DNA of 60,167 bases from a virus, in the IMG/VR virus record IMGVR_UViG_3300017783_000017, positions 1-60,167 of that record; one strand, 5' to 3'. Made by a program: the position numbers and the translations under genes. Below are positions 9,702-52,848 of the stretch, piece by piece. Position 1 is the first letter of the stretch, and every line of letters begins with the position of its first letter. The notes under the pieces are model-generated. The model did not search any database. It had not been told where the DNA came from and worked only from the letters and a program-made list of their open reading frames with translations.

Positions 9702-10295
9702 TTGGACAGTGTAGCATTTGTACTCGGTAACGGGACAAGTAGAGCATCTTTAGAATTAAAAAATCTTAGGGGAAAAGGAACTATATATGGTTGTAATGCC
9801 ATTTATAGAGATTTTGATCCTGATTATATTATTGCAGTAGACACAAAAATGGTGCTTGAATTAAACAAGCATAATGTACAACACAGAGTATCTACTTGGA
9901 CAAATCAAAATAGATCATACCAAAAACTTGTAGGGTTTAACTTCTTTAATCCATCTAAGGGTTGGAGCAGTGGACCTACTGCCTTATGGAAAGCATGTAA
10001 GGACGAACATAAAATTGTTTATATATTTGGATTTGATTACGTAGGCTTAAATAATAACACATTAGTAAACAATTTATATGCAGGCACACAAAACTATAAG
10101 AAAGAACATGAACGTGCAACCTATCATAATAACTGGTTAAAACAAACAATTATTACAATACAAGCACATCCTGAAATACAATTTTATAGAGTTACAGCAG
10201 AAAACGGCGAATTTATACCAGAGGCTTTCAGTAATTTAAGCAATTTAGACCATATAGGTATGCAAGATTTTAAGGATTTTTATGACATTTTATAA
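9702..10295 (+). CDS. DUF115/MptE-like Rossmann protein
   Basis: A 197-residue protein with TTG start right behind the previous stop. Its opening VAFVLGNGTSR followed by GTIYGCNAIYRDFDPDYIIAVD matches the pattern of DUF115-type proteins: a G-N-G-x-S loop, a strand, and an aspartate-ended strand. That family includes sugar or flagellin-modifying (Maf-like) enzymes and 6-hydroxymethylpterin diphosphokinase relatives. A second strand-rich block (IVYIFGFDYVG) ends in Asp. I infer a nucleotide-sugar or phosphate-dependent transfer enzyme, and the substrate is unknown. Its placement inside the capsid operon is unusual. It may be a moron-like insertion that modifies a virion protein or host glycan, consistent with the glycan genes at 49210-52848 and beyond 60020. 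Confidence 0.65.
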   Translation: MDSVAFVLGNGTSRASLELKNLRGKGTIYGCNAIYRDFDPDYIIAVDTKMVLELNKHNVQHRVSTWTNQNRSYQKLVGFNFFNPSKGWSSGPTALWKACKDEHKIVYIFGFDYVGLNNNTLVNNLYAGTQNYKKEHERATYHNNWLKQTIITIQAHPEIQFYRVTAENGEFIPEAFSNLSNLDHIGMQDFKDFYDIL

Positions 10296-10404: not shown

Positions 10405-11376
10405 ATGGCAGACACAAATAAATTTGAACAAATGCTCGAGCTCCTTGTTAACGAAGACAAGGAAGGCGCTGAAGCATTATTCCACGAAATTGTAGTTGAA
10501 AAGTCACGTGACATATATGAGTCACTACTTGAAGACGAAGCGGAAATTGATGAAGCTACTGATGAAGAAGTAGATGAATCATCCGACGAAGAAACAAACG
10601 AAGCATCCGACGAAGAAGTAGATGAAGCTACTGACGAAGAAGTTGACGAAGCTAAAGACGAAGAAGTTGATGAAGGTTTTGACCTTGATGAATTTGAAGT
10701 TGAAGCAGATCCAATGGACGATGCAGGCGAAGATAAAACTGATGACATGATGTCCGACTTAGGTATGGACGACGAAGGTGAAGAAGGCGACGACGAACCA
10801 GAAGGTGACGTTGAAGATCGTGTAGAAGACCTTGAAGATGCATTAGAAGATCTTAAAGCAGAATTTGAAAAGATGATGGGCGACGAAGACGCTGGCGACA
10901 GTGACGACGAAGGCGATATGGACATGGACATGGACGCTGACGACGAAGCTGACAAAGAAGAAGCAGTTGCTTTTGAATCATCCGACGAAGAAGTTGAAGA
11001 AGCTACTGATGAAGAAGTTGACGAAGCATCCGATGAGGAAGTTGACGAAGGCGAAAAATCAGCAAGCGAAACAATGCGCGAATATGTAGAAAAAGTATCT
11101 GCAACAATGGGCGACAACGGTGACAACACTAAATCCCCAATAGCAAGCGCAAATAACATGGGTGGTACCTCTGCAAACATCGCTAAAGGCGGTGAAGAAA
11201 AAGGTGGCGACCATGCTGGCTTAGGTGATAGCAATGCTAAAGAAGATAGCGCAGGGAATGTAAATGTTCCAGGTGGTAAGGCTTCTAAAGCAAATAAAGC
11301 TCAACCAGGTCACGGGGCTGAGAAAAAAGGTAAGCCCGAACAAGCAGCCGACAAGAAATCAACTCTTGGAAGCTAA
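10405..11376 (+). CDS. Acidic prohead core protein (gp67/68-like)
   Basis: A 323-residue, extremely acidic protein between portal and protease genes. Residues 1-45 (KFEQMLELLVNEDKEGAEAL) form the conserved helical head seen in core proteins of marine T4-like phages. Residues ~48-95 and ~210-235 contain tandem 8-residue units of the type DEEVDEA[TS], also repeated in the DNA. Residues ~95-210 are Asp/Glu/Met-rich, and residues ~240-323 are a Gly/Ala/Lys-rich tail. Such acidic core proteins fill the prohead and are degraded by gp21. The ATG follows TAGGAGAAAACA. The repeat tracts are prone to expansion, so length will vary between relatives. It is not an enzyme. Confidence 0.75.
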   Translation: MADTNKFEQMLELLVNEDKEGAEALFHEIVVEKSRDIYESLLEDEAEIDEATDEEVDESSDEETNEASDEEVDEATDEEVDEAKDEEVDEGFDLDEFEVEADPMDDAGEDKTDDMMSDLGMDDEGEEGDDEPEGDVEDRVEDLEDALEDLKAEFEKMMGDEDAGDSDDEGDMDMDMDADDEADKEEAVAFESSDEEVEEATDEEVDEASDEEVDEGEKSASETMREYVEKVSATMGDNGDNTKSPIASANNMGGTSANIAKGGEEKGGDHAGLGDSNAKEDSAGNVNVPGGKASKANKAQPGHGAEKKGKPEQAADKKSTLGS

Positions 11377-14360: not shown

Positions 14361-14375
14361 GACTAAATATTATTA

Positions 14376-14418
14376 CGTTCATCCTACGGGACGGAAGTAG
14401 CATTAGCGAAGGAACGCA
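14376..14418 (+). promoter_or_regulatory. Glutamine-II riboswitch (downstream-peptide / glnA type)
   Basis: The element opens with CGTTC (14376-14380), contains ACGGAAGTAG (14391-14400) and closes with GAAGGAACG (14408-14416). These are the conserved blocks of the glutamine-binding downstream-peptide/glnA RNA class, with CGTTC/GAACG forming the P1 helix. This class was first described upstream of short ORFs in cyanobacteria, cyanophages and marine metagenomes. Here, too, a short ORF with an RBS follows. It sits just behind the gp23 terminator. A degenerate late-promoter-like TAAATATTAT lies at 14365-14374. It should sense glutamine, i.e. host nitrogen status. No covariance search was run. Confidence 0.85.
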
Positions 14419-14444
14419 CTTTAACTTTAACGAGGAGAAGTGTA

Positions 14445-14573: not shown

Positions 14574-14797
14574 ATAAGCAATAAAAGAGTAATTAACTTT
14601 TATTTTTTAGTGCATCGAAGAGGCTCTTACCAGAGGGTTGAAGATGACAGCTTAGGGGTGGTACCCAGGCATGGTTGCAGAAATGCGTTGTGTCACATCG
14701 CTCTACCGAGCGGAAGTTGGTTCCCGGGATTCAGACAGGTATCTGTGTCGAAGGGTTGTAGGTGAAACCGAGTCCTACCTAAAATTGCTTATTCTTA
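14574..14797 (+). ncRNA. Structured non-coding RNA, ~220 nt, family unknown
   Basis: This is a non-coding stretch visibly richer in G and C than its surroundings, flanked by a sigma70-like promoter and a rho-independent terminator. Its 5' end ATAAGCAAT (14574-14582) is perfectly complementary to ATTGCTTAT (14784-14792), giving a 9-bp closing helix. Inside are several hairpins: CTCT/AGAG with TACC loop (14624-14635), GGGT/ACCC (14656-14666), GCAT/ATGC (14669-14686), the last two enclosed by GACA/TGTC (14646-14694), CGCTC/GAGCG with TACC loop (14699-14712), ACAG/CTGT (14735-14746) and GTAGG/CCTAC (14758-14778). It lacks the signature motifs of tRNA, tmRNA, RNase P RNA or SRP RNA that I can check. 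No ORF with an RBS spans it. Confidence 0.8.
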
Positions 14798-15146: not shown

Positions 15147-15164
15147 GTGTTAAAATTTTAACAC
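15147..15164. promoter_or_regulatory. Perfect 18-bp palindrome, candidate operator
   Basis: GTGTTAAAATTTTAACAC is a perfect dyad lying between the divergent Fis-type gene and the csgF operon, 5 bp before the late promoter element at 15170. Position and symmetry fit a homodimeric regulator site. It has no U-run after it, so it is not a terminator. Confidence 0.55.
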
Positions 15165-15169
15165 CAAGC

Positions 15170-15177
15170 GATAAATA
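15170..15177 (+). promoter_or_regulatory. Late promoter element GATAAATA of the csg operon
   Basis: It begins a leader ATAAATACAAGTGGAGGGC (15171-15189) carrying the RBS of csgF. The same 19 nt occur in front of the minus-strand gene at 24446. Confidence 0.6.
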
Positions 15178-15196
15178 CAAGTGGAGGGCTTCCTTT

Positions 15197-15685
15197 ATGA
15201 AGATAAGAAATATACATATCATCGGTCTGACTTTAGCACTTACATTTGCTATACCCAATGTTGCCGCAAGTGACTTGACTTGGAGTTTTAAATCTCCAGC
15301 ATTTCATTATGGTAACGGCTACAGTACTCACGTACTAAGTGTAGAACAGCTACAGTTTAACCGCAGAAAAGAAATTGCAGATGCACAGAAAGCAGAAGCG
15401 GCTCGCTTAGAGCGTGAATTAGAAAATACTACACTTAATAAATTTATTAAGAACGTTGAATCAAGAATATATGCACAACTATCAAAACAAATGGTTGATA
15501 GTATGTTTGCTGATTGTGATGCCACAACAGGCACATGCCCAACATCAGGAACAGCAGAAATCGAAGGTTCAACTATATCATGGGTTAAAGATGCTATAAC
15601 TGGAGAAATCACTTTGACTGTTGTTGAAGAAGATGGCTCTACTACTGAAATATCGATACCAGGATCAGGAGAGTTTAATTTTTAG
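15197..15685 (+). CDS. csgF: Curli assembly protein CsgF homologue
   Basis: A 162-residue secreted protein with signal peptide (residues 1-24, cleavage after NVAA). The mature N-terminus LTWSFKSPAFHYGNG matches the CsgF start (TFQFRNPNFGGNP in E. coli), the part that plugs into the CsgG pore. LNKFIKNVESRIYAQL matches the LDNFTQAIQSQI helix. The C-terminal GEITLTVVEEDGSTTEISIP matches the family's terminal beta-hairpin. In bacteria CsgF caps CsgG at the outer membrane and anchors CsgB at the surface. The protein is slightly longer than E. coli CsgF (138), with a Cys pair (DCDATTGTC). It has a late promoter and RBS GTGGAGGG, and is followed at once by csgG. Presence in a phage is the striking feature. 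Confidence 0.88.
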   Translation: MKIRNIHIIGLTLALTFAIPNVAASDLTWSFKSPAFHYGNGYSTHVLSVEQLQFNRRKEIADAQKAEAARLERELENTTLNKFIKNVESRIYAQLSKQMVDSMFADCDATTGTCPTSGTAEIEGSTISWVKDAITGEITLTVVEEDGSTTEISIPGSGEFNF

Positions 15686-15686
15686 T

Positions 15687-16490
15687 ATGCTGAAAACTGT
15701 TTGTGCCATTCTTACCCTTGCATTCCTAACAGGCTGTGCAGGCATGCAAAGCATGGAAAAATTAATAGATTCACAGGACAGTCCTGGATTACAGGTGTCA
15801 CCTATTAAAGATAGAATGATGAATGTTCGTCCTATAGATGGACCAAAAATTACAATAGCAGTATACCAATTTGCAGATAAAACAGGACAACGTAAACCTG
15901 CAGATAATATTGCTAATTTAAGTAGCGCAGTAACACAAGGAAGTGAAGTTTGGGTTATTAAAGCTCTACAAGAAGTAGGAAACGGAACGTGGTTTGAAGT
16001 TGTTGAAAGAGTGGGCATGGACCACTTGATTAAAGAACGTCAGTTGATACGTAACACACGTGACGTGTATGAAAAAGATTTACCTAATGGTCCAACGCCA
16101 TTAAAACCTATGTTGTTTGCGGGCTTATTGCTTGAAGGCGGCATTGTAGGATACGACAGCAATGTTGCAGTCGGAGGAATTGGAGCAAGGTATTTAGGAA
16201 TAGGAGCACAAACAGAGTACAGAATAGACACTGTTACTATTGTGATGCGCCTTGTTAGTGTTAGCACCGGTAAGGTGTTGATGAGCATAGCAACCGAAAA
16301 AACGATTGCAAGCTACAGGTCCGGAGCGGACATCTTCAAGTTTTTGGATTTGGGGACTAAATTAGTGGAGTCGGAAGCCGGCTTCAGTGTTAATGAACCA
16401 GTTAATTATGCTGTGAGGGCAGCCATTGAACAAGGCATAATAGAGCTGGTAAACGAAGGAGTTAATAAAGGACTCTGGAAGTTTAAATAA
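15687..16490 (+). CDS. csgG: Curli secretion pore lipoprotein CsgG homologue
   Basis: A 267-residue protein from the ATG at 15687, 1 nt after the csgF stop, with RBS CAGGAGAG. It is a lipoprotein: hydrophobic leader then lipobox LTGC with Cys17. ITIAVYQFADKTGQRKP, SSAVTQGSEVWVIKAL, WFEVVERVGMDHLIKERQLI and a TEYRIDTVTIVMRLVSVSTG block are classic CsgG signatures, and length matches E. coli CsgG (277). CsgG forms a nonameric outer-membrane channel that exports curlin subunits. An upstream in-frame extension to 15621 would overlap csgF and bury the lipobox, so it is rejected. With csgF it makes the core of a type VIII secretion pore. No csgE is seen. Confidence 0.95.
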   Translation: MLKTVCAILTLAFLTGCAGMQSMEKLIDSQDSPGLQVSPIKDRMMNVRPIDGPKITIAVYQFADKTGQRKPADNIANLSSAVTQGSEVWVIKALQEVGNGTWFEVVERVGMDHLIKERQLIRNTRDVYEKDLPNGPTPLKPMLFAGLLLEGGIVGYDSNVAVGGIGARYLGIGAQTEYRIDTVTIVMRLVSVSTGKVLMSIATEKTIASYRSGADIFKFLDLGTKLVESEAGFSVNEPVNYAVRAAIEQGIIELVNEGVNKGLWKFK

Positions 16491-16503
16491 GAGGGTAACT
16501 ATT

Positions 16504-17250
16504 ATGAAAAGTATAAAATTGTACTTAACAGCTATACTCTGGTTTACTGTATCTACTGCTCTGGCAAACGATATTTACATCGAGCAGGTCGGAGACACAT
16601 TAGACTTAGACATAGTACAAGATGGTGCGAATAATGTTATAGGCACAGCAACAACTGCGGCTATTTTAGAGGGCGACGGTATGACGTTCGATATTACACA
16701 GACAGGAAGTGCAAACGTTATTGCGGCAACTATCAAAGGAGTGAACTACGAAGGAACATGGGATTTTACTGGTGATCGTAACACAGTAGACATGTTATGT
16801 TCAAGCGCAAGTTCGGGTAATTGTGATGACGTTACGTTGAATGTCACTGTAGATGGTGATGACAACGAATTCAAGTTTTATGTAGGGCAATCTGCAGATG
16901 CAGAAGATTTACTTGCGGCATTCACTGTTGATGGAGACGGAAACGTTTTTGACGTTGACGTTGACGGAACAGATGCAAACATAACTGTCACTGTAGATAA
17001 CAGTGCATCGTTAGCATCTAACCAAGTCCAATCAGCTACCGATAATAATCTTTCAACAAGTGTTGCTGGAGGAAATATTATTGATTTAGATATAGACGGT
17101 AATGGAGATACAAACGGGCATGAAATTATCTTAGATATTACAGGCGGCGGGTCATCTTACACCATTAACCAAAGTGGCGTTAACGACAACAAAGTTGATG
17201 CAACTTTTTCAGGTGATGGTCAAACTGTCAATATAACGCAGAGTGACTAA
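16504..17250 (+). CDS. Secreted curlin-repeat-like protein (CsgA/CsgB-like)
   Basis: A 248-residue protein with a clear signal peptide (1-21, ...STALA). The mature start NDIYIEQVGDTLDLDIVQDG and later FDITQTGSANVI, SYTINQSGVNDNKVD and VNITQSD follow the curlin pattern x-Q-x-G-x-x-N-x-x-x-x-x-Q that forms the amyloid cross-beta. Between them lie degenerate Asp/Gly-rich units (DGDGNVFDVDVDG). It has a Cys pair near residue 100. The RBS GAGGG precedes the ATG, 13 nt after csgG. It is the likely substrate of the adjacent CsgG/CsgF pore. Repeats are less regular than in CsgA, so fibre formation is not assured. Confidence 0.8.
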   Translation: MKSIKLYLTAILWFTVSTALANDIYIEQVGDTLDLDIVQDGANNVIGTATTAAILEGDGMTFDITQTGSANVIAATIKGVNYEGTWDFTGDRNTVDMLCSSASSGNCDDVTLNVTVDGDDNEFKFYVGQSADAEDLLAAFTVDGDGNVFDVDVDGTDANITVTVDNSASLASNQVQSATDNNLSTSVAGGNIIDLDIDGNGDTNGHEIILDITGGGSSYTINQSGVNDNKVDATFSGDGQTVNITQSD

Positions 17251-17251
17251 A

Positions 17252-18385
17252 ATGTTAAGATTAATTCTAACATTCGCATTTTTTCTTTCGAGCACCTCAA
17301 CCGTTTATGCTAATTTGTCAGCAGGCAATATTGGCGAAATGAAAGGCTCTGGCGTGCTTGAAAGGCGAAATGATGTAATTACAGGTGGCGCAGGCGTAAG
17401 TGTGCAAAGTATGGACACTGCGGTTACAGCTAACGGTAAAATGAGAATTGATTTTATTGACGAAACACGAGTAGATTTAACAGAACATTCAAGACTTTTG
17501 ATTGACGAGTTTGTCTATGACCCTGCAAACGATATAGGCAAACTTTCAATTAAGGCCTCCTTAGGAGGTGTGAGATATGCTTCAGGCCAAATAGCAAAAA
17601 AATATAGACAAAACGTACAAATTAAAACACCATCTGCTACAATCGGAGTTAGGGGAACCGATTTTATATTAGTAGTAGACGAGGCGGGCGGCACGATGGT
17701 AACACTTTTACCCTCTTGTGATGTAGATGGGTATTGCTACACAGGAGAAATAGAAGTGGAAACCGATGCTGGCTTTGTAATTATGAACCAAGCCTTCCAA
17801 TCCACCATGGTTACACACGGCATGCGTCCCCCGACTCCCCCTTTAATTTTAGATATAGGCGAATCAGAAATCAACCAACTATTAATATTACGTAAGAAAA
17901 AACCTTATGAAGAAGAGGAAGATGAAATACGTAAAAAAACAAAAAAGATGTTTGATTTTCTTGATATAGATTTTTTAGAATTTGACGAACTTAATAATGA
18001 TGCACTAACATCAGATGTGCAAAATATATGGGCTACAGAGTTAGATGATAGCGATTACTATCTATCTGATTTGTTAGTTGATATGTTAGATGTTTTAAAT
18101 TTAGCATTAGCTAACTTATTTAGAGATCAACTTAAACTGGAAAACCAAGAAATATTTAGACAAAAACAAATTACAGGATATGACGAAACAACACGTATAT
18201 TCCTTGATTACGAAGAACCTACATATCATATAAGAAGAAAAGATATTTCGTTAAACAACAATATAGATATAAAATTAAATGATCAATACGGTTATACTCT
18301 AAACATAGAACAGCAAGACGAAGCAGTGTATGAATATCTACTTGGTGTAGGTGCTAATAGTATAGATATAAAGCAGAGACAATAA
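17252..18385 (+). CDS. Secreted FecR-domain protein
   Basis: A 377-residue protein, ATG 1 nt after the previous stop (a GTG at 17243 is a less likely start). Signal peptide 1-20 (...STVYA). Residues ~45-150 are a FecR domain: GKMRIDFIDETRVDLTEHSRL, GKLSIKASLGGVRYASG, and VQIKTPSATIGVRGTDFILV, the family's diagnostic VRGTDF motif. The C-terminal half is charged and helical (residues ~215-310) and ends in DIKQRQ. It lacks the N-terminal anti-sigma region of true FecR. In bacteria, secreted FecR-only proteins are often encoded beside CHASE2-cyclase genes and are thought to act as periplasmic ligands or sensors. A CHASE2-cyclase lies at 21581. Confidence 0.88.
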   Translation: MLRLILTFAFFLSSTSTVYANLSAGNIGEMKGSGVLERRNDVITGGAGVSVQSMDTAVTANGKMRIDFIDETRVDLTEHSRLLIDEFVYDPANDIGKLSIKASLGGVRYASGQIAKKYRQNVQIKTPSATIGVRGTDFILVVDEAGGTMVTLLPSCDVDGYCYTGEIEVETDAGFVIMNQAFQSTMVTHGMRPPTPPLILDIGESEINQLLILRKKKPYEEEEDEIRKKTKKMFDFLDIDFLEFDELNNDALTSDVQNIWATELDDSDYYLSDLLVDMLDVLNLALANLFRDQLKLENQEIFRQKQITGYDETTRIFLDYEEPTYHIRRKDISLNNNIDIKLNDQYGYTLNIEQQDEAVYEYLLGVGANSIDIKQRQ

Positions 18386-19839
18386 TGAAACTAACAGGAA
18401 CACATTTAGGAATCTTAGTTATAGCATTATACTTTGTTTTTCAGGCTTGTCCTGTGCAAGCTAATGATGCCTTTATATATTATAGTAACGGTAGCCCAGG
18501 CACCACCGCTCAATACAATCATTTAAAAAGCGAACTTGAAGATTTAGGATTTACTGTGACAGGAAGTACAAGTGGCACAGTAAGTTCAAGTGCAATATCA
18601 GGCCAAGATTTAGTTATTGATATGGCAGGAACTTCAAACTGTGGTAGTACTTGTAAGACAGCGTATGACAACTATGTAAATGGTGGTGGTAAATTACTCA
18701 TAGTAGGAGTCAACGGTGCAACCAACAGAAATGGCAATATAGAATCACTGATTGAAAATAAAATGGGTGTGGGATCAATGACATGGTATTCCCAAAGTTG
18801 TAGCGGCTGTTTTGCTTCAGTTGCAGTAGGCGATTATGCTTCAAGTACATCAAGTGAAAACACATTGCCAGGACCAGACAAATTGTTTACAGCAAGTGGC
18901 GGTACAGCAATGGCCAAAAACAGCACAGGTAATAATTATATGAGTTGGTATAAATGGGGCTATGGTTCCAATGGTGGTACCGTAATGGTCACTACTGGTT
19001 ATGGACAGTTTTTATCATATAATTCTCTTGTTGATAATCAAAATGCTTTCTTGTTAAGAGCATTGCAAGAAGAAGGATTAGTTGCAACAACAGTGACTTA
19101 CACATCAAGTATAAGCAATGCACAGACCACACAAATAACAACATCAAGAGCAGTAACACATAGTGGTAATGGTATATACATCGAGCAAGTGGGCAATGAC
19201 AACGAGTTAACTATCGACCAAGAAGGCGATAACAATCTTATCGCAGGCACTGGTAGTACAACTACTAATTATGAAAATGCAGAAATTACTGGAAGTAACA
19301 ATGTTACTACGCTAAATCAAAATGGTACTAACAATGTAATGTTGTTTGATATCACAGGCAACTATAACGATACAACTGTTGACCAAGGCGGTACTACAGG
19401 TTCAGACGATAACAGAGCCGAGTTTAACATCAATGGCGGCTTTAATACAACAAGTATTACGCAAAATCATGCCAATGGTATTGGAACTAATGGACACTTT
19501 GTTGCATTAGATCTTGACGGTGACGACAACAATGTTTTGACAAGTCAACTTAATGATGGAGATAAGAAAGCATTTCTAAGTGTACAAGGTGACGACAATG
19601 ATATAGACCTATACCAACAAGGCTCAGGCTCGCACTATGCAGAAATATCTGTAGGCAATGATCAAACAATTGATGTAACACAAGACGGAAGTGGCAATCA
19701 CAATGCCAGTATTTCAATGTCAGGTTATACATCAGGTTTGGATCTTACACAAGATAGTTCAACAGGAAAAACTTATTCTATAATGCAAAATTGCTTAAAC
19801 GCAAATGGTTGTGGCACAACTACTATTACACAAAACTGA
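18385..19839 (+). CDS. Secreted fusion: alpha/beta (GATase/ThuA-like) domain plus curlin repeats
   Basis: A 484-residue protein whose ATG overlaps the FecR stop (TAATG). Signal peptide ~1-26 (...CPVQA). Residues ~27-230 look like a flavodoxin/class I glutamine-amidotransferase-like fold: AFIYYSNG strand, LKSELEDLGFTVTG, DLVIDMAG, YVNGGGKLLIVG and GGTVMVTTGYGQF strands. No catalytic Cys-His-Glu triad is evident. Residues ~265-484 hold curlin-like units beginning GIYIEQVGNDNELTIDQEGD, with many Q-x-G-x-x-N and D-D-N motifs, and end TTTITQN. The repeat region resembles the 16504 protein (both start with IYIEQVG). It is probably a second export substrate of CsgG, carrying a globular cargo at its N-terminus. 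Confidence 0.75.
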   Translation: MKLTGTHLGILVIALYFVFQACPVQANDAFIYYSNGSPGTTAQYNHLKSELEDLGFTVTGSTSGTVSSSAISGQDLVIDMAGTSNCGSTCKTAYDNYVNGGGKLLIVGVNGATNRNGNIESLIENKMGVGSMTWYSQSCSGCFASVAVGDYASSTSSENTLPGPDKLFTASGGTAMAKNSTGNNYMSWYKWGYGSNGGTVMVTTGYGQFLSYNSLVDNQNAFLLRALQEEGLVATTVTYTSSISNAQTTQITTSRAVTHSGNGIYIEQVGNDNELTIDQEGDNNLIAGTGSTTTNYENAEITGSNNVTTLNQNGTNNVMLFDITGNYNDTTVDQGGTTGSDDNRAEFNINGGFNTTSITQNHANGIGTNGHFVALDLDGDDNNVLTSQLNDGDKKAFLSVQGDDNDIDLYQQGSGSHYAEISVGNDQTIDVTQDGSGNHNASISMSGYTSGLDLTQDSSTGKTYSIMQNCLNANGCGTTTITQN

Positions 19840-19857
19840 AAGGGAAGGATTAAAAAA

Positions 19858-20133
19858 ATGGAAATGGGCTTTAACGAGATAGCAAAAACTTGTCTCGATT
19901 TAGAAGGGTATGATAGAAACTTACCTGTTGAAGAAAGATTTGAAGAATTTGATTTTAGAAAGGCCGCAGGGTGTGCATCTAAGGGTAGAGTTGCACTATA
20001 CATAAAAGATAATTATGATACTGCGGCTTTCTTAAAAGCAAATCCTCATTTCAGATATCCAGGCGGATCAAATGGAAACATAGACCCGTGCTGGGGCAAG
20101 AACAAAAGATATCTTGCAAACGGAGGATGTTAA
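19858..20133 (+). CDS. Small hypothetical protein of the csg island
   Basis: A 91-residue soluble protein. ATG at 19858 follows GGGAAGGA, with a second in-frame ATG at 19864. It contains three Cys (residues ~11, 39 and 78) plus a final Cys (GGC), an acidic stretch (VEERFEEFDF) and YPGGSNGNIDPCWGKN. There is no signal peptide. Not recognised. It lies between the curlin fusion and a membrane protein, in the same direction, and probably belongs to the same transcript. Confidence 0.6.
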   Translation: MEMGFNEIAKTCLDLEGYDRNLPVEERFEEFDFRKAAGCASKGRVALYIKDNYDTAAFLKANPHFRYPGGSNGNIDPCWGKNKRYLANGGC

Positions 20134-20134
20134 A

Positions 20135-20350
20135 ATGAGTAACTTTAATCAAGATCATATGTTTACAAAGCTACAAAAAATGTATTTTTTAGGATGTGGT
20201 ATATTAGTAGCATTATGTATGACTTACATTACATTTTTATATTTTGAGTATAGAGTAGTAAATGCAACATGGGAAACTACATTTGTTTCGCCTGCGGCAT
20301 TTTGGGACGAAGTACCGGACTGGAAATGGGAACCTATATTTAAGGGGTAA
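20135..20350 (+). CDS. Small single-pass membrane protein
   Basis: A 71-residue protein from ATG 20135, 1 nt after the preceding stop, with RBS GGAGG in the preceding gene end. One membrane segment covers residues ~17-38 (FLGCGILVALCMTYITFLYF), with a basic N-terminal side, followed by a short acidic/aromatic external tail (WDEVPDWKWEPIF). No family is recognised. It could be a holin-like or accessory protein of the envelope island. Size and topology alone do not decide this. Confidence 0.65.
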   Translation: MSNFNQDHMFTKLQKMYFLGCGILVALCMTYITFLYFEYRVVNATWETTFVSPAAFWDEVPDWKWEPIFKG

Positions 20351-20358
20351 ATAAACAC

Positions 20359-20616
20359 ATGTTCGGATGGTTTCAAAAGGAGCACACAGATGCAGAACAA
20401 CAAGAGGATTGGATTCCTAAGCGAGTTGCAGAGCTTAAATCCAGAATCGCCGCTCTTGAAAGCCGCATCGGAAGGCATAAAGAATCCAATCAAAGTACAC
20501 AAGCACACTCCGAGCATGTGGTGGATACGCGAACAGAGAAAACTGAATCAGCCCAAGCCAGCAAAAAAGATCTTGAAATGATGGCTCTAAAAGCCAAACT
20601 TATGGGTAAAAGATAA
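20359..20616 (+). CDS. Small coiled-coil hypothetical protein
   Basis: An 85-residue charged helical protein starting MFGWFQKEHTD. Residues ~18-42 (PKRVAELKSRIAALESRIGR) form a short coiled coil, the middle is polar and disordered, and the end is a helix (DLEMMALKAKLMGKR). The aromatic N-terminal MFGWF could associate peripherally with a membrane. It is 8 nt after the membrane-protein gene. Function is unknown. Confidence 0.6.
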   Translation: MFGWFQKEHTDAEQQEDWIPKRVAELKSRIAALESRIGRHKESNQSTQAHSEHVVDTRTEKTESAQASKKDLEMMALKAKLMGKR

Positions 20617-20619
20617 ATA
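20612..20619 (+). promoter_or_regulatory. Late promoter element GATAAATA
   Basis: One-mismatch late element overlapping the preceding stop, followed by a ~70-nt leader with a CACC/GGTG mini-hairpin (20657-20668) before the ATG at 20689. Confidence 0.5.
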
Positions 20620-20688
20620 CACTTGTAAGCGAAGCGTGAGGGCGTTTCAGAAAGTCACCTTTCGGTGCATTCACAGAAAGCAATACCC

Positions 20689-21171
20689 ATGATCGATCCC
20701 GTATCGGCTATAGGAATGGCAACAGCCGCATATCGCGGAATTAAGTCAGCAATAGACACTGGGCGAGAACTGCACGACATGGCAGGGACTCTATCTCAGT
20801 GGGCAGGTGCAATGTCTGACTTAGACTTTTCACACAAACAAGCCGAAAATCCACCAATGTTCAAAAAACTGTTTGGCGCAAGCCAAATAGAACAAAATGC
20901 TCTGGAAATTTGGGGGCATAAACAAAAAGCAAAAGAAATGCGCGATGAAATGAAAACACACATAAGTTTTTATTATGGTCCAAGTGCCTGGGATGAAATT
21001 GTACGCATCGAAGGCGAAATGCGCAAGAAACGTGCGGCAGAAGTTTATAAAGCTGAAGAACGTAAACAATTAATCTTAGAATGGGTAGTCGGAATAACTT
21101 TAGCGGTAGTAGGCCTATCTGTATTAGCTTTTGTTTTTTGGTTAATAGGAGTTGGCACAGGAAAATGGTAG
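20689..21171 (+). CDS. Conserved phage membrane-anchored protein (MIDPVSAIG family)
   Basis: A 160-residue protein. I choose ATG 20689 because the opening MIDPVSAIGMATAAYRGIKS resembles a family I recall from many T4-like marine phages. A GTG at 20665 would add 8 residues. The N-terminal third is amphipathic helix, the middle is charged (KAKEMRDEMKTHISFYYGPS then AWDEI), a coiled coil covers ~105-130, and a C-terminal membrane segment covers ~134-157 (VVGITLAVVGLSVLAFVFWL). Function is unknown. In relatives it is usually annotated as a hypothetical or structural protein. It lies between the curli and cyclase parts of the island. Confidence 0.75.
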   Translation: MIDPVSAIGMATAAYRGIKSAIDTGRELHDMAGTLSQWAGAMSDLDFSHKQAENPPMFKKLFGASQIEQNALEIWGHKQKAKEMRDEMKTHISFYYGPSAWDEIVRIEGEMRKKRAAEVYKAEERKQLILEWVVGITLAVVGLSVLAFVFWLIGVGTGKW

Positions 21172-21172
21172 T

Positions 21173-21361
21173 ATGTGGATATTAATTTACTTGGCATTAT
21201 CTGCAGGCGGAGCCATGCAAAATTATCATATAGGAACATTTACTACACAAGAAGAATGTGCCGCAGAACTTAGCAAAGCACATGTGTTAGTAAAATCAAA
21301 AGGCCAGTCTATAGATTGCATCGAAATTGTAATTGACGAGACTTACATAAAACTTAACTAA
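21173..21361 (+). CDS. Small secreted or membrane-associated protein
   Basis: A 62-residue protein, ATG 1 nt after the preceding stop. Residues 1-16 (MWILIYLALSAGGAMQ) are hydrophobic, a signal peptide or anchor. The mature part has two Cys (EECAAEL, DCIEIV) spaced ~20 apart in a short beta-alpha-beta-like pattern (HIGTFTTQEECAAELSKAH). Similar short 'FxTxExCxxA' proteins are found in marine phages and bacteria without known function. Confidence 0.6.
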   Translation: MWILIYLALSAGGAMQNYHIGTFTTQEECAAELSKAHVLVKSKGQSIDCIEIVIDETYIKLN

Positions 21362-21369
21362 ATAATTGT

Positions 21370-21573
21370 ATGTTATTAGAGTTGGCTATGGCTGGCTTCT
21401 TAACCTGCAACTTATACAAGCAAGAAATTGTAGGTGAAGATAGGCAGTGTTATTATAAATGCACAGACACTTCAAAGGATTACGCATCTACTTTGAAACA
21501 GTACCAATGCCCTAAACGACTACAAGTAGACAGACCTCCTTTAAAATTTAAAGACCGTATCAAAGACAAATAA
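21370..21573 (+). CDS. Small Cys-containing protein
   Basis: A 67-residue protein with a weakly hydrophobic N-terminus (MLLELAMAGFLTC) and five Cys overall (LTCNLY, RQCYYKCTDT, QYQCPK). The C-terminus is basic. The N-terminus might be a short signal or lipoprotein leader (FLTC), but the charge pattern is not convincing. It has no recognisable family and lies directly upstream of the cyclase. The pattern GEDRQCYYKC resembles small secreted phage proteins, but nothing more can be said. Confidence 0.5.
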   Translation: MLLELAMAGFLTCNLYKQEIVGEDRQCYYKCTDTSKDYASTLKQYQCPKRLQVDRPPLKFKDRIKDK

Positions 21574-21576
21574 ATA
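21569..21576 (+). promoter_or_regulatory. Late-like element AATAAATA next to cyclase start
   Basis: A one-mismatch late element only 4 nt before the cyclase ATG. There is no Shine-Dalgarno in the interval, so it may be chance or give a leaderless transcript. Confidence 0.3.
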
Positions 21577-21580
21577 CAGT

Positions 21581-23632
21581 ATGACCAAGTATATTACACA
21601 TTGGGCTGTGGCCTTAGTTACGGCTTTTATTATGATAGGTTTCCACTACAATGATAGCTCTGTAGTGCAAACGGCTCGGCTGAAGTCATTTGATATACTT
21701 CAACAAACAGATCAGCCAACATTATCCCAAGATATTGCTGTCGTCACTATCGACGAAAGCGCCATTGAAAAGTACGGACAATGGCCTTGGAAGCGTGATG
21801 TTCTTGCAGATATAATCTGGAAGCTTCGTGAAGCAGGTGCTGGCATTATTGTAATGCCTATGTTATTTTCAGAGCCAGATAGACTTGGCGGTGATATAGC
21901 ATTAGCCGAAGCACTTGTAGATAACGGCGTAGTGATTGCTCAAACAGGATCTACACAAGCCAATCGCAACTCGGTCCCGCGAGGAATTGCGAAGATAGGA
22001 GACCCACTGCCATACATGTTTGAATGGCCGGGGATGCTGGGACCTATTCCATTGTTAGGAGAGAATGCAGACGGTGTAGGAGTGTTGAACACTTTCCCAG
22101 AGATCGATGGCGTTGTACGTAGAGTACCTCTTCTTATGCGTATCGGGGATGATACGTATCCTGCTTTAGCAGTGGAAGTAATCAGAGTAGCAACAGGAAA
22201 TCCAAGCTATCAAGTGAAAGCTAATCAAGGTGGGATTGAAAAAGTAAGAGTTCCGGGGTTTCCAATAATAACCACAGATCCAAATGGACAAATTTGGTTA
22301 CGTTGGAATAAAGATTTTGAAACTATAAGTGTTGCTGACAATGATTTAAGTACAGTAGCAGGTAAAACTGTTATTGTAGGAGTAACTGCTGAAGGAATTG
22401 GCGGAATGATAGCATCACCAACTGGTCCAAAATATAATTACATTCCTTCAGCAGTTATGCTCCAGACTGTAATAGATGGAGATCAGATACAACGTCCATA
22501 CTGGGCGTTTTTGGCTGAACTACTTACTACAGCTATTTTAGGCCTTTTATTAGTATTATTAGCTCGTTTTACACCATATTACATAGTTGGTGGGTCTATA
22601 CTACTCTTTAGCGGAAGTCTTGCTTACGGAGCGTTATACGCTTGGCAAGAGTACCTTTATTTGCTTGATGTTACTATGCCGGTGATTACAGTTCTAATCG
22701 TCGGATTACATGCAGTGTTTAATAGATTTGTAAGTGAATACACACAGAAACAAGCAATTAAGAAACAGTTTGCAGGATATGCAAGTCCAACAGTAGTACG
22801 TTTACTACAAGAAAATCCTTCATTAATTAAAGAAGGAATGAAAAAAGAAGTTAGTATACTGTTTAGTGATTTGCGTGGCTTTACACCATTAGGCGAATCG
22901 TTCGGTGATGATGTTAAAGGCTTAACTAAAATTATGAATGGCTATATGGATGCTATTACGCAACCTATATTAGATTCAGACGGTATGGTTATTAAGTATA
23001 TCGGCGATGCAAGTATGCACATACACAATGCGCCAATAGACGATCCAGAACATCCTAAAACAGCAATACAATGTGGATTGAATATGTTAAGTGCAGTGGA
23101 GAAATTTAATGATAAAATTACAGCAGAAGGAAGGCCGCCCGTTGGAATGGGTGCCGGCATCAATACCGGCCTTGGCTATCTTGGAGAAATGGGTAGCACA
23201 GCAAGACATTCGTACGATGTGTTGGGAGACGCAGTATCAACAGCCGCAAGAATTGAAAGCAAGTGTAAAGAATACGGATGTCTCCTCTTAGTAGGCGAAA
23301 GCACATACAAAGAAACTAAAGATGATTTCTTTTATCTAAAAGTAGATGACTTACAAGTAAAAGGTAAAAGTGTAGGATTAAGCATTTATACTGTGTTAGA
23401 TTTAGAAGGAACACACGCTCAAAAGAAAAGTCAAGAAATGCACGAGCGTATGCACGATGCATACAAAGAACAAAAGTTTGATGAAGCTATTTACATATGC
23501 GAAAGACTAAAAAGGCACTTTAATGCAAAAATGCAAGGCTATTATGATATGTGGATTGAACGCTGTGAATACATGAAAACACAAGACCTACCAAAAGATT
23601 GGAATGGTGTGTTTATAGCAACTTCTAAATAA
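21581..23632 (+). CDS. CHASE2-domain class III adenylate cyclase
   Basis: A 683-residue receptor cyclase making cAMP (or cGMP) from NTP. TM ~8-22, CHASE2 extracytoplasmic sensor ~30-305 (DIAVVTIDESAIEKYGQWPW signature), three TMs ~308-330, 333-355 and 360-380, then a cyclase domain ~420-610. Metal Asp430 (ILFSDLRGF) and Asp476 (KYIGDAS), purine-reading Lys472 and Asp546 (pointing to ATP) and Arg557 are present. The transition-state Asn of the usual VNxAAR is Ser553 here (DAVSTAARIES). The C-terminal ~65 residues are a helical extension. CHASE2-cyclases with FecR partners are known in bacteria, and a FecR-domain gene lies 3 kb upstream. The gene is convergent with the next operon, with no spacer. 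Confidence 0.95.
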   Translation: MTKYITHWAVALVTAFIMIGFHYNDSSVVQTARLKSFDILQQTDQPTLSQDIAVVTIDESAIEKYGQWPWKRDVLADIIWKLREAGAGIIVMPMLFSEPDRLGGDIALAEALVDNGVVIAQTGSTQANRNSVPRGIAKIGDPLPYMFEWPGMLGPIPLLGENADGVGVLNTFPEIDGVVRRVPLLMRIGDDTYPALAVEVIRVATGNPSYQVKANQGGIEKVRVPGFPIITTDPNGQIWLRWNKDFETISVADNDLSTVAGKTVIVGVTAEGIGGMIASPTGPKYNYIPSAVMLQTVIDGDQIQRPYWAFLAELLTTAILGLLLVLLARFTPYYIVGGSILLFSGSLAYGALYAWQEYLYLLDVTMPVITVLIVGLHAVFNRFVSEYTQKQAIKKQFAGYASPTVVRLLQENPSLIKEGMKKEVSILFSDLRGFTPLGESFGDDVKGLTKIMNGYMDAITQPILDSDGMVIKYIGDASMHIHNAPIDDPEHPKTAIQCGLNMLSAVEKFNDKITAEGRPPVGMGAGINTGLGYLGEMGSTARHSYDVLGDAVSTAARIESKCKEYGCLLLVGESTYKETKDDFFYLKVDDLQVKGKSVGLSIYTVLDLEGTHAQKKSQEMHERMHDAYKEQKFDEAIYICERLKRHFNAKMQGYYDMWIERCEYMKTQDLPKDWNGVFIATSK

Positions 23633-23953
23633 TTATTTTTTACCAGTGCTGTCAAATTTTTGATTTGTTACATCACTGTATTTGTTGACAATTTCTTCAA
23701 GTTCAGCTCTACGCTCTTTATCAAGTTTTGCTTCGTTTTCTAAAGCCATAGTAAGTTTTGTATTCAAGCGTATCATGTCGTTGTCTAACATGCGAACTCT
23801 GTCAACCAGTTTTATTAGTGTAGCCATAGCATCACCAACGACAGGTTGAATTTCGGTCGTAACCCATTTCCAAATATAATATACAAAGTAACCTAACCCA
23901 GTAGCCGCGACTATTGGAAAACCATAATCACTTACTACTTGACTTAGATCCAT
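23633..23953 (-). CDS. Small membrane protein B (paralogue of 24168-24446), holin-like?
   Basis: A 106-residue protein. One membrane segment covers residues ~11-32 (GFPIVAATGLGYFVYYIWKW), followed by an amphipathic helix and a charged coiled coil (LDKERRAELEEIVNKYSDV). The N-terminal 70 residues align with those of the gene at 24446 (MD[FL]...V[SA]D.GFPI...., then D.RV..[ML][DN]ND[ML]..[IL]...[ML]..AL). Its ATG lies inside the preceding gene (26-nt overlap). Topology resembles small BhlA/UviB-type phage holins, but this is a topology guess. It ends abutting the cyclase stop. Confidence 0.7.
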   Translation of the reverse strand: MDLSQVVSDYGFPIVAATGLGYFVYYIWKWVTTEIQPVVGDAMATLIKLVDRVRMLDNDMIRLNTKLTMALENEAKLDKERRAELEEIVNKYSDVTNQKFDSTGKK

Positions 23954-24167
23954 ATTTTTCCTTTTCGTATTTCATTAATAACGTGTTCACCTCGTCTGAC
24001 TTAACAAGCCATCCGTTTTCGTTAACAATAAAGACATCGCCTGGTTTATATAACCAATGAGATTTTGGCGTACCGTCTTTTTGAACACCCATTACTTCTC
24101 CGGGCCAATCACCTTTGACAGTAAAATTATCTCCAGCTTGTTCTACAGTATAGTCTAACCAAATCAC
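23928..24167 (-). CDS. Small soluble protein between two membrane paralogues
   Basis: A 79-residue protein with GTG start immediately after the TAA of the upstream gene (TAAGTG), RBS GAGAG. It is rich in Trp, Gly and Asp (GDWPGEVMGVQKDGTPKSHW), with PGDVFIVNENGWLVK giving a small beta-barrel appearance. The C-terminus is basic (KYGSKSSSK). Not recognised. Sandwiched in one translationally coupled operon with two related membrane proteins, it may be their partner or regulator. The order membrane-soluble-membrane is reminiscent of lysis cassettes, without proof. Confidence 0.65.
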   Translation of the reverse strand: MIWLDYTVEQAGDNFTVKGDWPGEVMGVQKDGTPKSHWLYKPGDVFIVNENGWLVKSDEVNTLLMKYEKEKYGSKSSSK

Positions 24168-24446
24168 TTAATCTCTCCTTGCATCTTCTTTGCCTTCATT
24201 TGCCGCAATCCTATCTACATTAGGTTTTACCTTTAGTGCATGGCTCATAAGCGCATCGATCTTCACAAGATCATTATTCATAGTTTGCACACGATTGTCA
24301 AGACCACTTGTAATATTTTTTAATCCCTTGACAGAACCTGTAACACCTGCTAATATAAATTTTAATGTAGTAAAAACAAATAAACCGGCTGCCAATGCTC
24401 CTGCTATCGGAAACCCTAAATCTGCTACTAAACTTAAAAAGTCCAT
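24168..24446 (-). CDS. Small membrane protein A, holin-like?
   Basis: A 92-residue protein. One membrane segment covers residues ~10-33 (LGFPIAGALAAGLFVFTTLK), followed by an amphipathic helix (SGLDNRVQTMNNDLVKID) and a charged tail. It is paralogous to the 106-residue protein two genes downstream. The late promoter at 24467-24474 and the leader ATAAATACAAGTGGAGGGC are identical over 19 nt with those of the csgF operon. Expression late in infection, small size and a single TM fit a holin or pore accessory. Other membrane roles are possible. Confidence 0.7.
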   Translation of the reverse strand: MDFLSLVADLGFPIAGALAAGLFVFTTLKFILAGVTGSVKGLKNITSGLDNRVQTMNNDLVKIDALMSHALKVKPNVDRIAANEGKEDARRD

Positions 24447-24498: not shown

Positions 24499-24592
24499 CA
24501 TATGTCAGATAGTGTGCCGCAAGGCGGACTTATGCTGTACCCACAGCGTAGCTCATAGAACGGGCATAGGACTACTATTATAGGAGAAAACA

Positions 24593-25042
24593 ATGGGAAG
24601 ACCACTTAATAAAAGGTTGATGGGAACGCCGACAGCAGCCGGCAACGAAATCAAAGTAAACTTTCATAACGGCACAGCAGTTAAAGAAGGTTATATCGTA
24701 AAGCAAAAAGGCTCAAAGAAATTTGTATGTGAAGAAATTGGAACAGCAGGCGAATTTACTTGTACACTAACAACTGGTAAATTACCAGCGGCATTAGCGG
24801 CAGGCGAAATGGCTATTTCATTCAAAATGGACGACAGTGAAACTTACACAGTAAGTAAAATTGCTGGACGTAAAGCAACTTTATCTGCTCCAAGTGGAAC
24901 AGGTGCAAACGCTTATGACGGACTTAGTGTAGCGTGGAACTTTAGCACAAGTACTTCAGATGGTGCGGCACAAGTTGAAGAAGCTGGTGACGACAACACA
25001 TTAGTAGGTACTGATGACGACGACTTCACAGAAGACGCATAA
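24593..25042 (+). CDS. Conserved T4-like phage virion protein (MGRPLNKR family)
   Basis: A 149-residue protein with strong RBS TAGGAGAAAACA. The opening MGRPLNKRLMG followed by NEIKV and GYIVKQKGSKKFVCEE and CTLTTGKLP...LAAGEMAI recall a small beta-rich structural protein found just ahead of fibre genes in cyanophages and pelagic myophages. The C-terminus is acidic (DDDDFTED). It has no catalytic signature. The virion role (decoration or tail) is inferred from context and family memory. It starts the long plus-strand tail-fibre transcript. Confidence 0.75.
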   Translation: MGRPLNKRLMGTPTAAGNEIKVNFHNGTAVKEGYIVKQKGSKKFVCEEIGTAGEFTCTLTTGKLPAALAAGEMAISFKMDDSETYTVSKIAGRKATLSAPSGTGANAYDGLSVAWNFSTSTSDGAAQVEEAGDDNTLVGTDDDDFTEDA

Positions 25043-51063: not shown

Positions 51064-52848
51064 ATGAGTAATACAGGATACATCGCAGCCATAACAAGAG
51101 GTCACAACGCTGGCGTATGCTTGCTTAAAGATGGTGAAATTGTATTTGCTATTGAAGAAGAACGTTTTTCAAGACACAAATATGATGGAGGCCCATATGC
51201 AAGTATGGTTAAAATATTAGAATACACAGACAAAATTGATTATCTGGTAGTAGCACACACCCAATCTTTAGCTGAAACAGCAGGACGAGTTGACTTTACT
51301 GGCGATGATGTGTATACTGGTTTAGCACGTAAATTAGGATTAATAAGTAGAAAAGAAAATCCATACGAGCATCCGCAAGTGGTAGATCTCAGTCATATGC
51401 ACCATAGACTGCACGTTGCATGTGCTTTTTATAGAAGTGGTTTTGAAACAGCCGCTGGCGTTATTATAGACGGCGCTGGAACTTTTATTCCATTAAGTAT
51501 GAACAACGAAGAAACGACAGGGTGGGAAACCGAAACTTTATATTCTTGTGCTTATCCAAATGACTTGAACACAATTTGGAAACACATTGGTATTAGAGGA
51601 CCTGCTATCGGCGGCGAAGTTGAAGCTGTAGATGAGATGGGCGGCAAATATCCTGCATTTGTAAATGAAAGAGCAGGCTTGGTAAAAGCCTATGAAGCAG
51701 TTACAGAATATTGTGGATTTAGTGCCATCGAAGCAGGCAAAACAATGGGCTTATTTCCATATGGCAAAGAAAACGACGGTATACCAAAAATTTATGACAG
51801 AACCAGCGTTATTCCATTAGTCAATAGAAATTTAATTATACCAACATATCCTAACTCGGGCAAAGTAAATTCTTTATCATTTGATGCGCTGAAACAGAAT
51901 CCAGACGAAAATGAAGATGCTACAAAGATGCAAAATAGAAGAGATATGGCTTACGCTGTACAAACACAAACACAACAAAGAGCATTAGAATTAATTTTAC
52001 AAGCAGTTGAAATGACTGGAGAAAAAAATGTTGTAGTAAGCGGTGGGTATGGTTTAAACTGTGTTGCAAATTATTTTTACTTAGACAAATTAAAAGACAT
52101 GGGTATTAATTTATACGTAGAACCTATTTCAAATGACGCAGGCACAGCAATAGGCGCGGCATTAATGTTCCATAGATCTCTAACACAAGATGAGTCAGTT
52201 TTAGAAAGAAGCGACGATTTGTATCTTGGACCAAAGTACAATATAGACACCAAAGAAGTTTATGCAATTTCTAAACAATACAAAGCAGATGTAACAGATG
52301 CAACAAATGAAGACGTAATAAAATTAATTACTGATAAAAATATTGTAGCAGTATACCAAGGCCGTTCTGAAAATGGACCACGTGCATTAGGCAATAGAAG
52401 CATACTATACGATCCAACAGACCCTAATGGTAAAGAACATGTAAACATGGTAAAACGTAGAGAATATTTTAGACCATTTGCAGGTAGTATATTAGAAGAA
52501 GATGTACACGAATGGTTTGATTTACGTGGTATGGAAAGCTCACCTACAATGATGTATGCTGTAAACTGTCAGCCTGGTGTTGAAGAAAAGATTCCTGCTA
52601 TTATTCATGTAGACGGAACTTGCCGTATACAAACTGTAAATAGGGAACAAAATGAAAATTATTATGACCTTATAAAAGCATTTAAAGATGCTACAGGTTG
52701 TCCTATAATTTTCAACACAAGTTTTAACTTAGGTGGCGAACCTTTAGTTGAAACACTTGAAGATGCACTATGGACTTTACAGCAAAGTGATATTGAATAC
52801 TTGTACCTTCCTGAACATAATAAATTACTTACTATCCTAAATGATTAA
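51064..52848 (+). CDS. NodU/CmcH-family carbamoyltransferase
   Basis: A 594-residue enzyme transferring a carbamoyl group from carbamoyl phosphate to sugar hydroxyls via carbamoyl-AMP. N-terminal Kae1-like domain: RGHNAGVCLLKDGEIVFAIE and EERFSRHK, MHHRLHVACAFYRSGF with metal-site His residues, GVIIDGAGTF. C-terminal YrdC-like domain: GRSENGPRALGNRSILYDPT, REYFRPFAGSILEEDV, IFNTSFNLGGEPLVETLEDA. Full length and intact. Homologues are frequent in marine T4-like phages. It completes the glycan set; the target is perhaps host O-antigen or a virion glycan. Confidence 0.93.
   Translation: MSNTGYIAAITRGHNAGVCLLKDGEIVFAIEEERFSRHKYDGGPYASMVKILEYTDKIDYLVVAHTQSLAETAGRVDFTGDDVYTGLARKLGLISRKENPYEHPQVVDLSHMHHRLHVACAFYRSGFETAAGVIIDGAGTFIPLSMNNEETTGWETETLYSCAYPNDLNTIWKHIGIRGPAIGGEVEAVDEMGGKYPAFVNERAGLVKAYEAVTEYCGFSAIEAGKTMGLFPYGKENDGIPKIYDRTSVIPLVNRNLIIPTYPNSGKVNSLSFDALKQNPDENEDATKMQNRRDMAYAVQTQTQQRALELILQAVEMTGEKNVVVSGGYGLNCVANYFYLDKLKDMGINLYVEPISNDAGTAIGAALMFHRSLTQDESVLERSDDLYLGPKYNIDTKEVYAISKQYKADVTDATNEDVIKLITDKNIVAVYQGRSENGPRALGNRSILYDPTDPNGKEHVNMVKRREYFRPFAGSILEEDVHEWFDLRGMESSPTMMYAVNCQPGVEEKIPAIIHVDGTCRIQTVNREQNENYYDLIKAFKDATGCPIIFNTSFNLGGEPLVETLEDALWTLQQSDIEYLYLPEHNKLLTILND

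Follow-up and report, generated by a model that had tools for sequence, protein, structure and literature searches.

Curli genes are known from several marine phages. csgGF was first reported by Zaragoza-Solas 2020 (PMC7029224), curli genes were mentioned in the same year for a T4-like virus of marine Bacteroidetes (PMC7198788), and csgFG was described in Methylophilales phage Melnitz by Buchholz 2022 (PMC9004378). In SAR11 podo- and myophages, Wittmers et al. 2022 found a type VIII secretion system (T8SS) composed of CsgF, CsgG, a CsgA/B-like protein, FecR, a second CsgA/B protein and an adenylate cyclase, without CsgC, CsgD and CsgE, and reported its ocean-wide distribution, its transcripts in pelagiphages and its transfer among phage families (PMC9599517). 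Why ocean phages encode a bacterial machinery for fibre export that is absent from their known hosts is a puzzle. Here we analyzed a 60-kb IMG/VR record, IMGVR_UViG_3300017783_000017, a fragment of a phage genome (60,167 nucleotides, hereafter the window) that harbors the same gene set in the same order. A first-pass annotation of the window considered the whole module to be less described, a view that the report of Wittmers et al. contradicts. The core module is already known, and what we add is its presence in a jumbo phage lineage, two small partner genes (h1 and h3), the heads of the second curlin protein (CurB) and the tail of the FecR protein. The h1/h3 pair, the variable CurB head and the curlin-like FecR tail break the puzzle into testable parts, and the isolates Pelagibacter phage HTVC008M and Melnitz already contain the complete set.

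Composition and proposed function of the module

The window carries csgF, csgG, the gene of a first curlin-type protein (CurA), the FecR gene, CurB and the cyclase gene in this order on the + strand (15197-23632), with overlaps or short gaps between the genes. Judged against the curated Pfam cut-offs, matches were found for CsgF, CsgG, FecR, CHASE2 and Guanylate_cyc, as well as for Curlin_rpt in CurB. This is in agreement with the first-pass annotation, which had placed these genes in one direction and had proposed a surface amyloid or export system linked to a cyclic AMP signal. Profile searches across phage loci support a curli-type export set with its own substrates and a FecR/CHASE2 pair: the Pfam matches hold and the set is strictly co-inherited, so that neither failing profiles nor scattered genes, the outcomes named as arguing against it, were found. 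Indeed, the six core genes keep a fixed order in those related phage loci whose flanks are long enough, as well as in Melnitz and HTVC008M, and the gene set is therefore not due to chance. CsgF, CsgG, FecR and the cyclase each belong to an existing PHROG of unknown function.

The locus contains the sequence hallmarks of a type VIII (curli) system, namely CsgG, CsgF and secreted substrates with curlin repeats, CurA being below the Curlin_rpt cut-off. For CsgG, a start at 15687 (ATG, with GGAG upstream) is likelier than one at 15621 and yields the lipobox LTGC. CurA would be a curlin-type protein judging from its position, its conservation and its repeat pattern. Compared to the pelagiphage T8SS, the window differs by its jumbo lineage, by h1/h3 lying downstream on the opposite strand, by a Fis-like gene upstream, and by six extra small open reading frames (ORFs) and a CurB with a head.

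We propose that the module is a phage-encoded type VIII export and surface-display system with a variable adhesin and FecR-CHASE2 reporting, a reading that we consider about as likely to be right as wrong. During infection, CsgG and CsgF would form an outer-membrane pore and export CurA and CurB, which would assemble into a curlin-type fibre on the infected cell, with CurB as a variable tip or adhesin carrying interchangeable N-terminal heads. Periplasmic FecR would use its curlin-like C-terminal strands to detect curlin subunits, or the bases of fibres, at the pore; it would relay the export state to CHASE2, and the inner-membrane cyclase carrying that domain would set cyclic AMP (cAMP), while h1 and h3 would be placed on the inner-membrane side. 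The most likely benefit would be an altered surface of the infected cell, that is, adhesion to or aggregation with new hosts or the blocking of competing phages. Taken separately, export of curlin by the module is probable, and coupling of FecR-CHASE2 to this export falls a little short of an even chance. Adhesion or aggregation is suggested only tentatively as the purpose, with exclusion of rivals and permeability as the alternatives.

Curlin proteins, FecR tail and cyclase

In the AlphaFold model, the C-terminal part of CurB is a solenoid-like run of strands in a curlin-like register, with a predicted local distance difference test score (pLDDT) mostly of 75-89 per block. The head is an alpha/beta domain modelled with lower confidence, and its best folds in Foldseek were IFT52, the GATase-like domain of GH42-type enzymes and ThuA (E values of 7e-4 to 0.02), suggesting that it may be flavodoxin/ThuA-like. 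A relationship to pentatricopeptide proteins was rejected, the sequence match being a 23-residue chance stretch. The CurB of HTVC008M carries a PA14 head instead (2.7e-6, over cut-off). Similarly, two loci (L090 and L091) share a scaffold that is 87% identical while their heads are unrelated (22%). The N-terminal heads, flavodoxin/ThuA-like or PA14, are thus interchangeable on the curlin scaffold. CurB length ranges from 139 to 485 amino acids; the C-terminal cap is conserved, and so is the mature N terminus in headless forms. All loci with the head type of the window (15/15) fall within T8SS modules.

The window is approximately 100% identical to another locus (L005) from 6892 to about 18770, where identity drops abruptly inside the CurB head, which marks either a site of recombination or a chimeric assembly. 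Variable heads and recombination at CurB would fit an arms race, and the same exporter could thus serve superinfection exclusion, with the fibre or the CurB head covering or binding receptors against competing phages, as proposed earlier (PMC9599517). However, CurB variation fits adhesion equally well, and we regard this purpose as unlikely.

The FecR protein was modelled with a pLDDT of 84. Its FecR domain is PupR-like, and a long helix is followed by a confident strand unit (pLDDT of about 90). The 53 distinct FecRs of our first set end with strand motifs of the form xIxQ-(~21 residues)-xIxQ, a pitch of about 22 residues as in curlin rungs. Furthermore, a curlin-rung profile found its best match in the tail of 63 of 82 FecRs, compared to 3 of 51 with shuffled tails, counts that include related sequences and are hence not independent. 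FecR thus ends in a strand unit with a weak similarity to curlin. Among 84,980 cellular species, full-length matches came solely from phage contigs in metagenome-assembled genome (MAG) bins; the remaining matches were FecR domains alone, several of them adjoining CHASE2 cyclases.

The cyclase matched CHASE2 (1.5e-41) and Guanylate_cyc (1e-16), with one N-terminal and three further transmembrane (TM) segments around CHASE2. The features of class III enzymes are present: the metal-binding Asp430/Asp476, the adenine-selecting Lys472 and the transition-state Arg557 are invariant in 70 sequences, and Asp546, the adenine-selecting partner, is found in 65. These residues support an active adenylate cyclase, with the caveat of a serine for asparagine exchange described below, and the metal-binding and adenine-selecting positions are consistent with the link to a cAMP signal.

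As the first-pass annotation had stated, FecR-CHASE2 pairs exist in bacteria. In Devosia, Rhizobiaceae and others, a secreted FecR protein adjoins a CHASE2 class III cyclase. Unlike the phage pair, these have no curli genes beside them, the phage FecR has an additional C-terminal half, and most phage cyclases carry Ser for the usual Asn, which the bacterial CHASE2 cyclases that we compared retain at the residue-553 position. Such stand-alone pairs, and the resemblance of the FecR domain to the surface-signalling domain of PupR, would suit an independent sensor of iron, envelope stress or nutrient state that merely shares the operon and reprograms host metabolism via cAMP. This is improbable in our view, since the FecR gene sits between the two curlin genes in loci with enough flank and since its C-terminal half lacks a full-length cellular counterpart outside the binned phage contigs.

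Conversely, bacterial curli operons share CsgF, CsgG and curlin-repeat substrates with the module, and FecR, CHASE2 cyclase and h1/h3 were absent within approximately 9 kb of 25/25 Pseudomonadota curli loci (5 drawn among Alphaproteobacteria and 20 at phylum level). The combination is therefore phage specific in this sample, where the module resembles two bacterial systems fused to each other, with a phage-specific gene pair added.

Several observations speak against an export and reporting system as proposed here. The Curlin_rpt match of CurA had an E value of only 0.03. The CsgE gate was not found by Pfam among the scanned module ORFs, although CsgE is not universal in type VIII systems and is also missing from known phage modules (PMC9599517). 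A folded CurB head would need to be unfolded to pass CsgG. Single curlin rungs in the FecR tail scored weakly (median of 0.1 bit), so that convergence with curlin is possible. Residue 553 of the cyclase is Ser in place of the usual transition-state Asn in 65/70 phage enzymes. Finally, Melnitz-infected cultures showed no clumping (PMC9004378).

The partner genes h1 and h3

Both h1 and h3 belong to phrog_18771 and are paralogues of each other; each combines a coiled coil with an N-terminal hydrophobic stretch. By hydropathy, the TM segment of h3 is clear and that of h1 is below threshold; PDB searches returned only generic coiled coils. Both genes were present in 32/32 informative loci (non-identical CsgG loci with enough flank), in 20 of them downstream and convergent and in 12 upstream and co-directional; one locus (L196) has another arrangement. 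Searching from h3, we found module genes at 77 of 80 loci, and the remaining three stop at a contig edge. In the isolate collection, h1/h3 were confined to the six records with the full module. h3 is 73-85% identical in most other phages, including 79-83% in three loci where the cyclase is only 40-60% identical (L147, L145 and L157). From this linkage, h1 and h3 are regarded as obligate, previously overlooked partners of the module, which as a functional unit runs beyond 23632, up to 24446. The first-pass annotation had the module content right but incomplete, as it missed h1/h3, the jumbo context and the variable CurB head.

The deposited genomes of Melnitz and HTVC008M contain the complete module plus h1/h3, but there the pair lies upstream and co-directional. 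The Melnitz paper states that csgA/B are lacking (PMC9004378), yet its GenBank entry lists FecR, a cyclase and two curlin-repeat proteins. In the pelagiphage T8SS, a gene labelled "HK", sometimes two, precedes csgF (PMC9599517). Judging from their position in other loci and not from a sequence comparison, h1/h3 are probably these "HK" genes; in the window no such gene lies upstream of csgF, h1/h3 being found downstream on the opposite strand instead. As histidine kinases, h1/h3 had no HisKA or HATPase match in Pfam or NCBIfam, and with only 92-106 amino acids they cannot hold a kinase domain.

A pinholin or secretin has been proposed for Melnitz (PMC9004378), and h1 weakly matched phrog_4898, a holin PHROG (0.002), the only holin family match for either protein. 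The module could thus be a lysis or permeability device in which CsgG, with or without CsgF, perforates the outer membrane and h1/h3 serve as holin-like partners in the inner membrane, timing lysis or admitting nutrients. However, a bare hole would require neither both curlin proteins nor FecR and the cyclase, yet all are kept with the pore, and CurB varies like a surface protein. Moreover, the isolates with h1/h3 all carry the module, so we rejected the pair as a general T4-type holin. Such a device appears quite unlikely, more so than the other alternatives.

Phage lineage, gene map and neighboring features

The first-pass annotation called the phage T4-like, which holds at the level of the T4 superfamily. 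Within it, the capsid is 66-70% identical to those of jumbo phages (Sinorhizobium phage Phosso, 469 kb; Vibrio 2.275.O, 349 kb; the PA5oct group, 287 kb), and the portal is also nearest to jumbo phages (43-49%). By these two proteins, the window belongs with the PA5oct/Phosso/2.275.O phages. A 330-kb contig (G406) whose capsid is 87% identical to that of the window carries the module (L147). A 236-kb contig (G402) holds the locus with the highest CsgG identity apart from identical loci (L012); its terminase is 80% identical to that of G406, with PA5oct as the nearest isolate. Our literature search turned up no report of curli genes in jumbo phages.

That the module entered the jumbo lineage only once was rejected by the CsgG tree (p-AU, approximately unbiased test, of 7.8e-7), a quick tree with long branches. 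Loci from contigs that have this capsid type are not monophyletic in CsgG, and the module was therefore exchanged more than once; the jumbo context shows that it travels between distant phages. A T7-type connector was not matched by Pfam in candidate podophage contigs, nor in the controls, and our locus counts do not separate podophage loci from others. A wider claim, which we consider rather doubtful, is that this is a phage-specific, self-contained surface organelle working as a closed loop, in which h1/h3, the FecR curlin rung and the cyclase would report export as cAMP and CurB would show its interchangeable binding heads; the whole set would have passed intact among ordinary T4-type phages, podophages and jumbo phages, and no cellular system would match it in composition.

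Module-bearing phage contigs also occur inside bacterial MAGs of GTDB (L164-L168 and G004), with at least four in the Rhodobacteraceae Water_Bin34. Pirellulales, Rhodobacteraceae and Flavobacteriaceae were rejected as hosts of L164-L168, which appear to be phage contigs placed in the wrong bin. A 1.5-kb "Salmonella phage" record (GenBank OR851715.1) with a 41% CsgG match is probably bacterial DNA.

Table 1. Features of the curli-type module and its flanks in the window
Feature	Position	Strand	Evidence
HTH, Fis-type helix-turn-helix protein, 87 aa	14807..15070	-	Pfam HTH_8 2.4e-6, over cut-off; place in related loci
CsgF	15197..15685	+	Pfam CsgF 2.2e-10; phrog_35372 2e-53
CsgG, outer-membrane pore lipoprotein	15687..16490	+	Pfam CsgG 5.5e-49; start and lipobox
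CurA, first curlin-type secreted protein, conserved	16504..17250	+	Curlin_rpt 0.03, below cut-off; present in 80/80 CsgG loci
FecR-domain secreted protein, helical linker, C-terminal curlin-like strand unit (~residues 312-380)	17243..18385	+	Pfam FecR 8.8e-10; model; tail motif
CurB, second curlin protein; head ~27-235, curlin scaffold ~260-484	18385..19839	+	Curlin_rpt 6e-8; AlphaFold and Foldseek; head swaps
Six small ORFs s1-s6, two with TM helix, variable cargo	19858..21573	+	ORF list; locus comparison; hydropathy
CHASE2-class III adenylate cyclase, 1 + 3 TM	21581..23632	+	Pfam; hydropathy; catalytic residues
h1, putative membrane-anchored coiled coil, 106 aa, h3 paralogue, obligate module partner	23633..23953	-	phrog_18771 5e-30; linkage
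h2, small, between h1 and h3	23928..24167	-	38/80 CsgG loci; frequent, not constant
h3, one-TM coiled coil, 92 aa, obligate module partner	24168..24446	-	phrog_18771 1e-30; linkage

Hydropathy agrees with the earlier count of two clear membrane segments among the six small proteins (20135-20350 and 20665-21171). s1-s6 are missing at the matching place in the near-identical L005, except for an s4-like ORF, as well as in Melnitz and HTVC008M. The HTH gene, divergent from csgF, occurs in 18/80 CsgG loci and is hence optional; its product is a candidate regulator of the module.

Further upstream, the + strand carries a Glutamine riboswitch (14374-14420), an ORF of 32 amino acids and a manA RNA (14580-14788) that ends just 5' of a terminator-like hairpin shared with the HTH gene. 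Both RNAs were rejected as module parts: among 16 related loci they occur only in the window and L005, except that L123 has one riboswitch, located at a tmRNA. In the fibre locus downstream, the single ORF that we examined had no family match. A freshwater-2 RNA motif (24513-24595, + strand) directly precedes the ORF at 24593, and L157 has the same motif (9929-10015) directly before a related ORF. Elsewhere in the window, the ORF at 10405-11376, upstream of the head protease gene, contains internal repeats of approximately 77 bp (10534-11051), and a Nol-like carbamoyltransferase is encoded at 51064-52848 on the + strand (phrog_1601, 5e-169).

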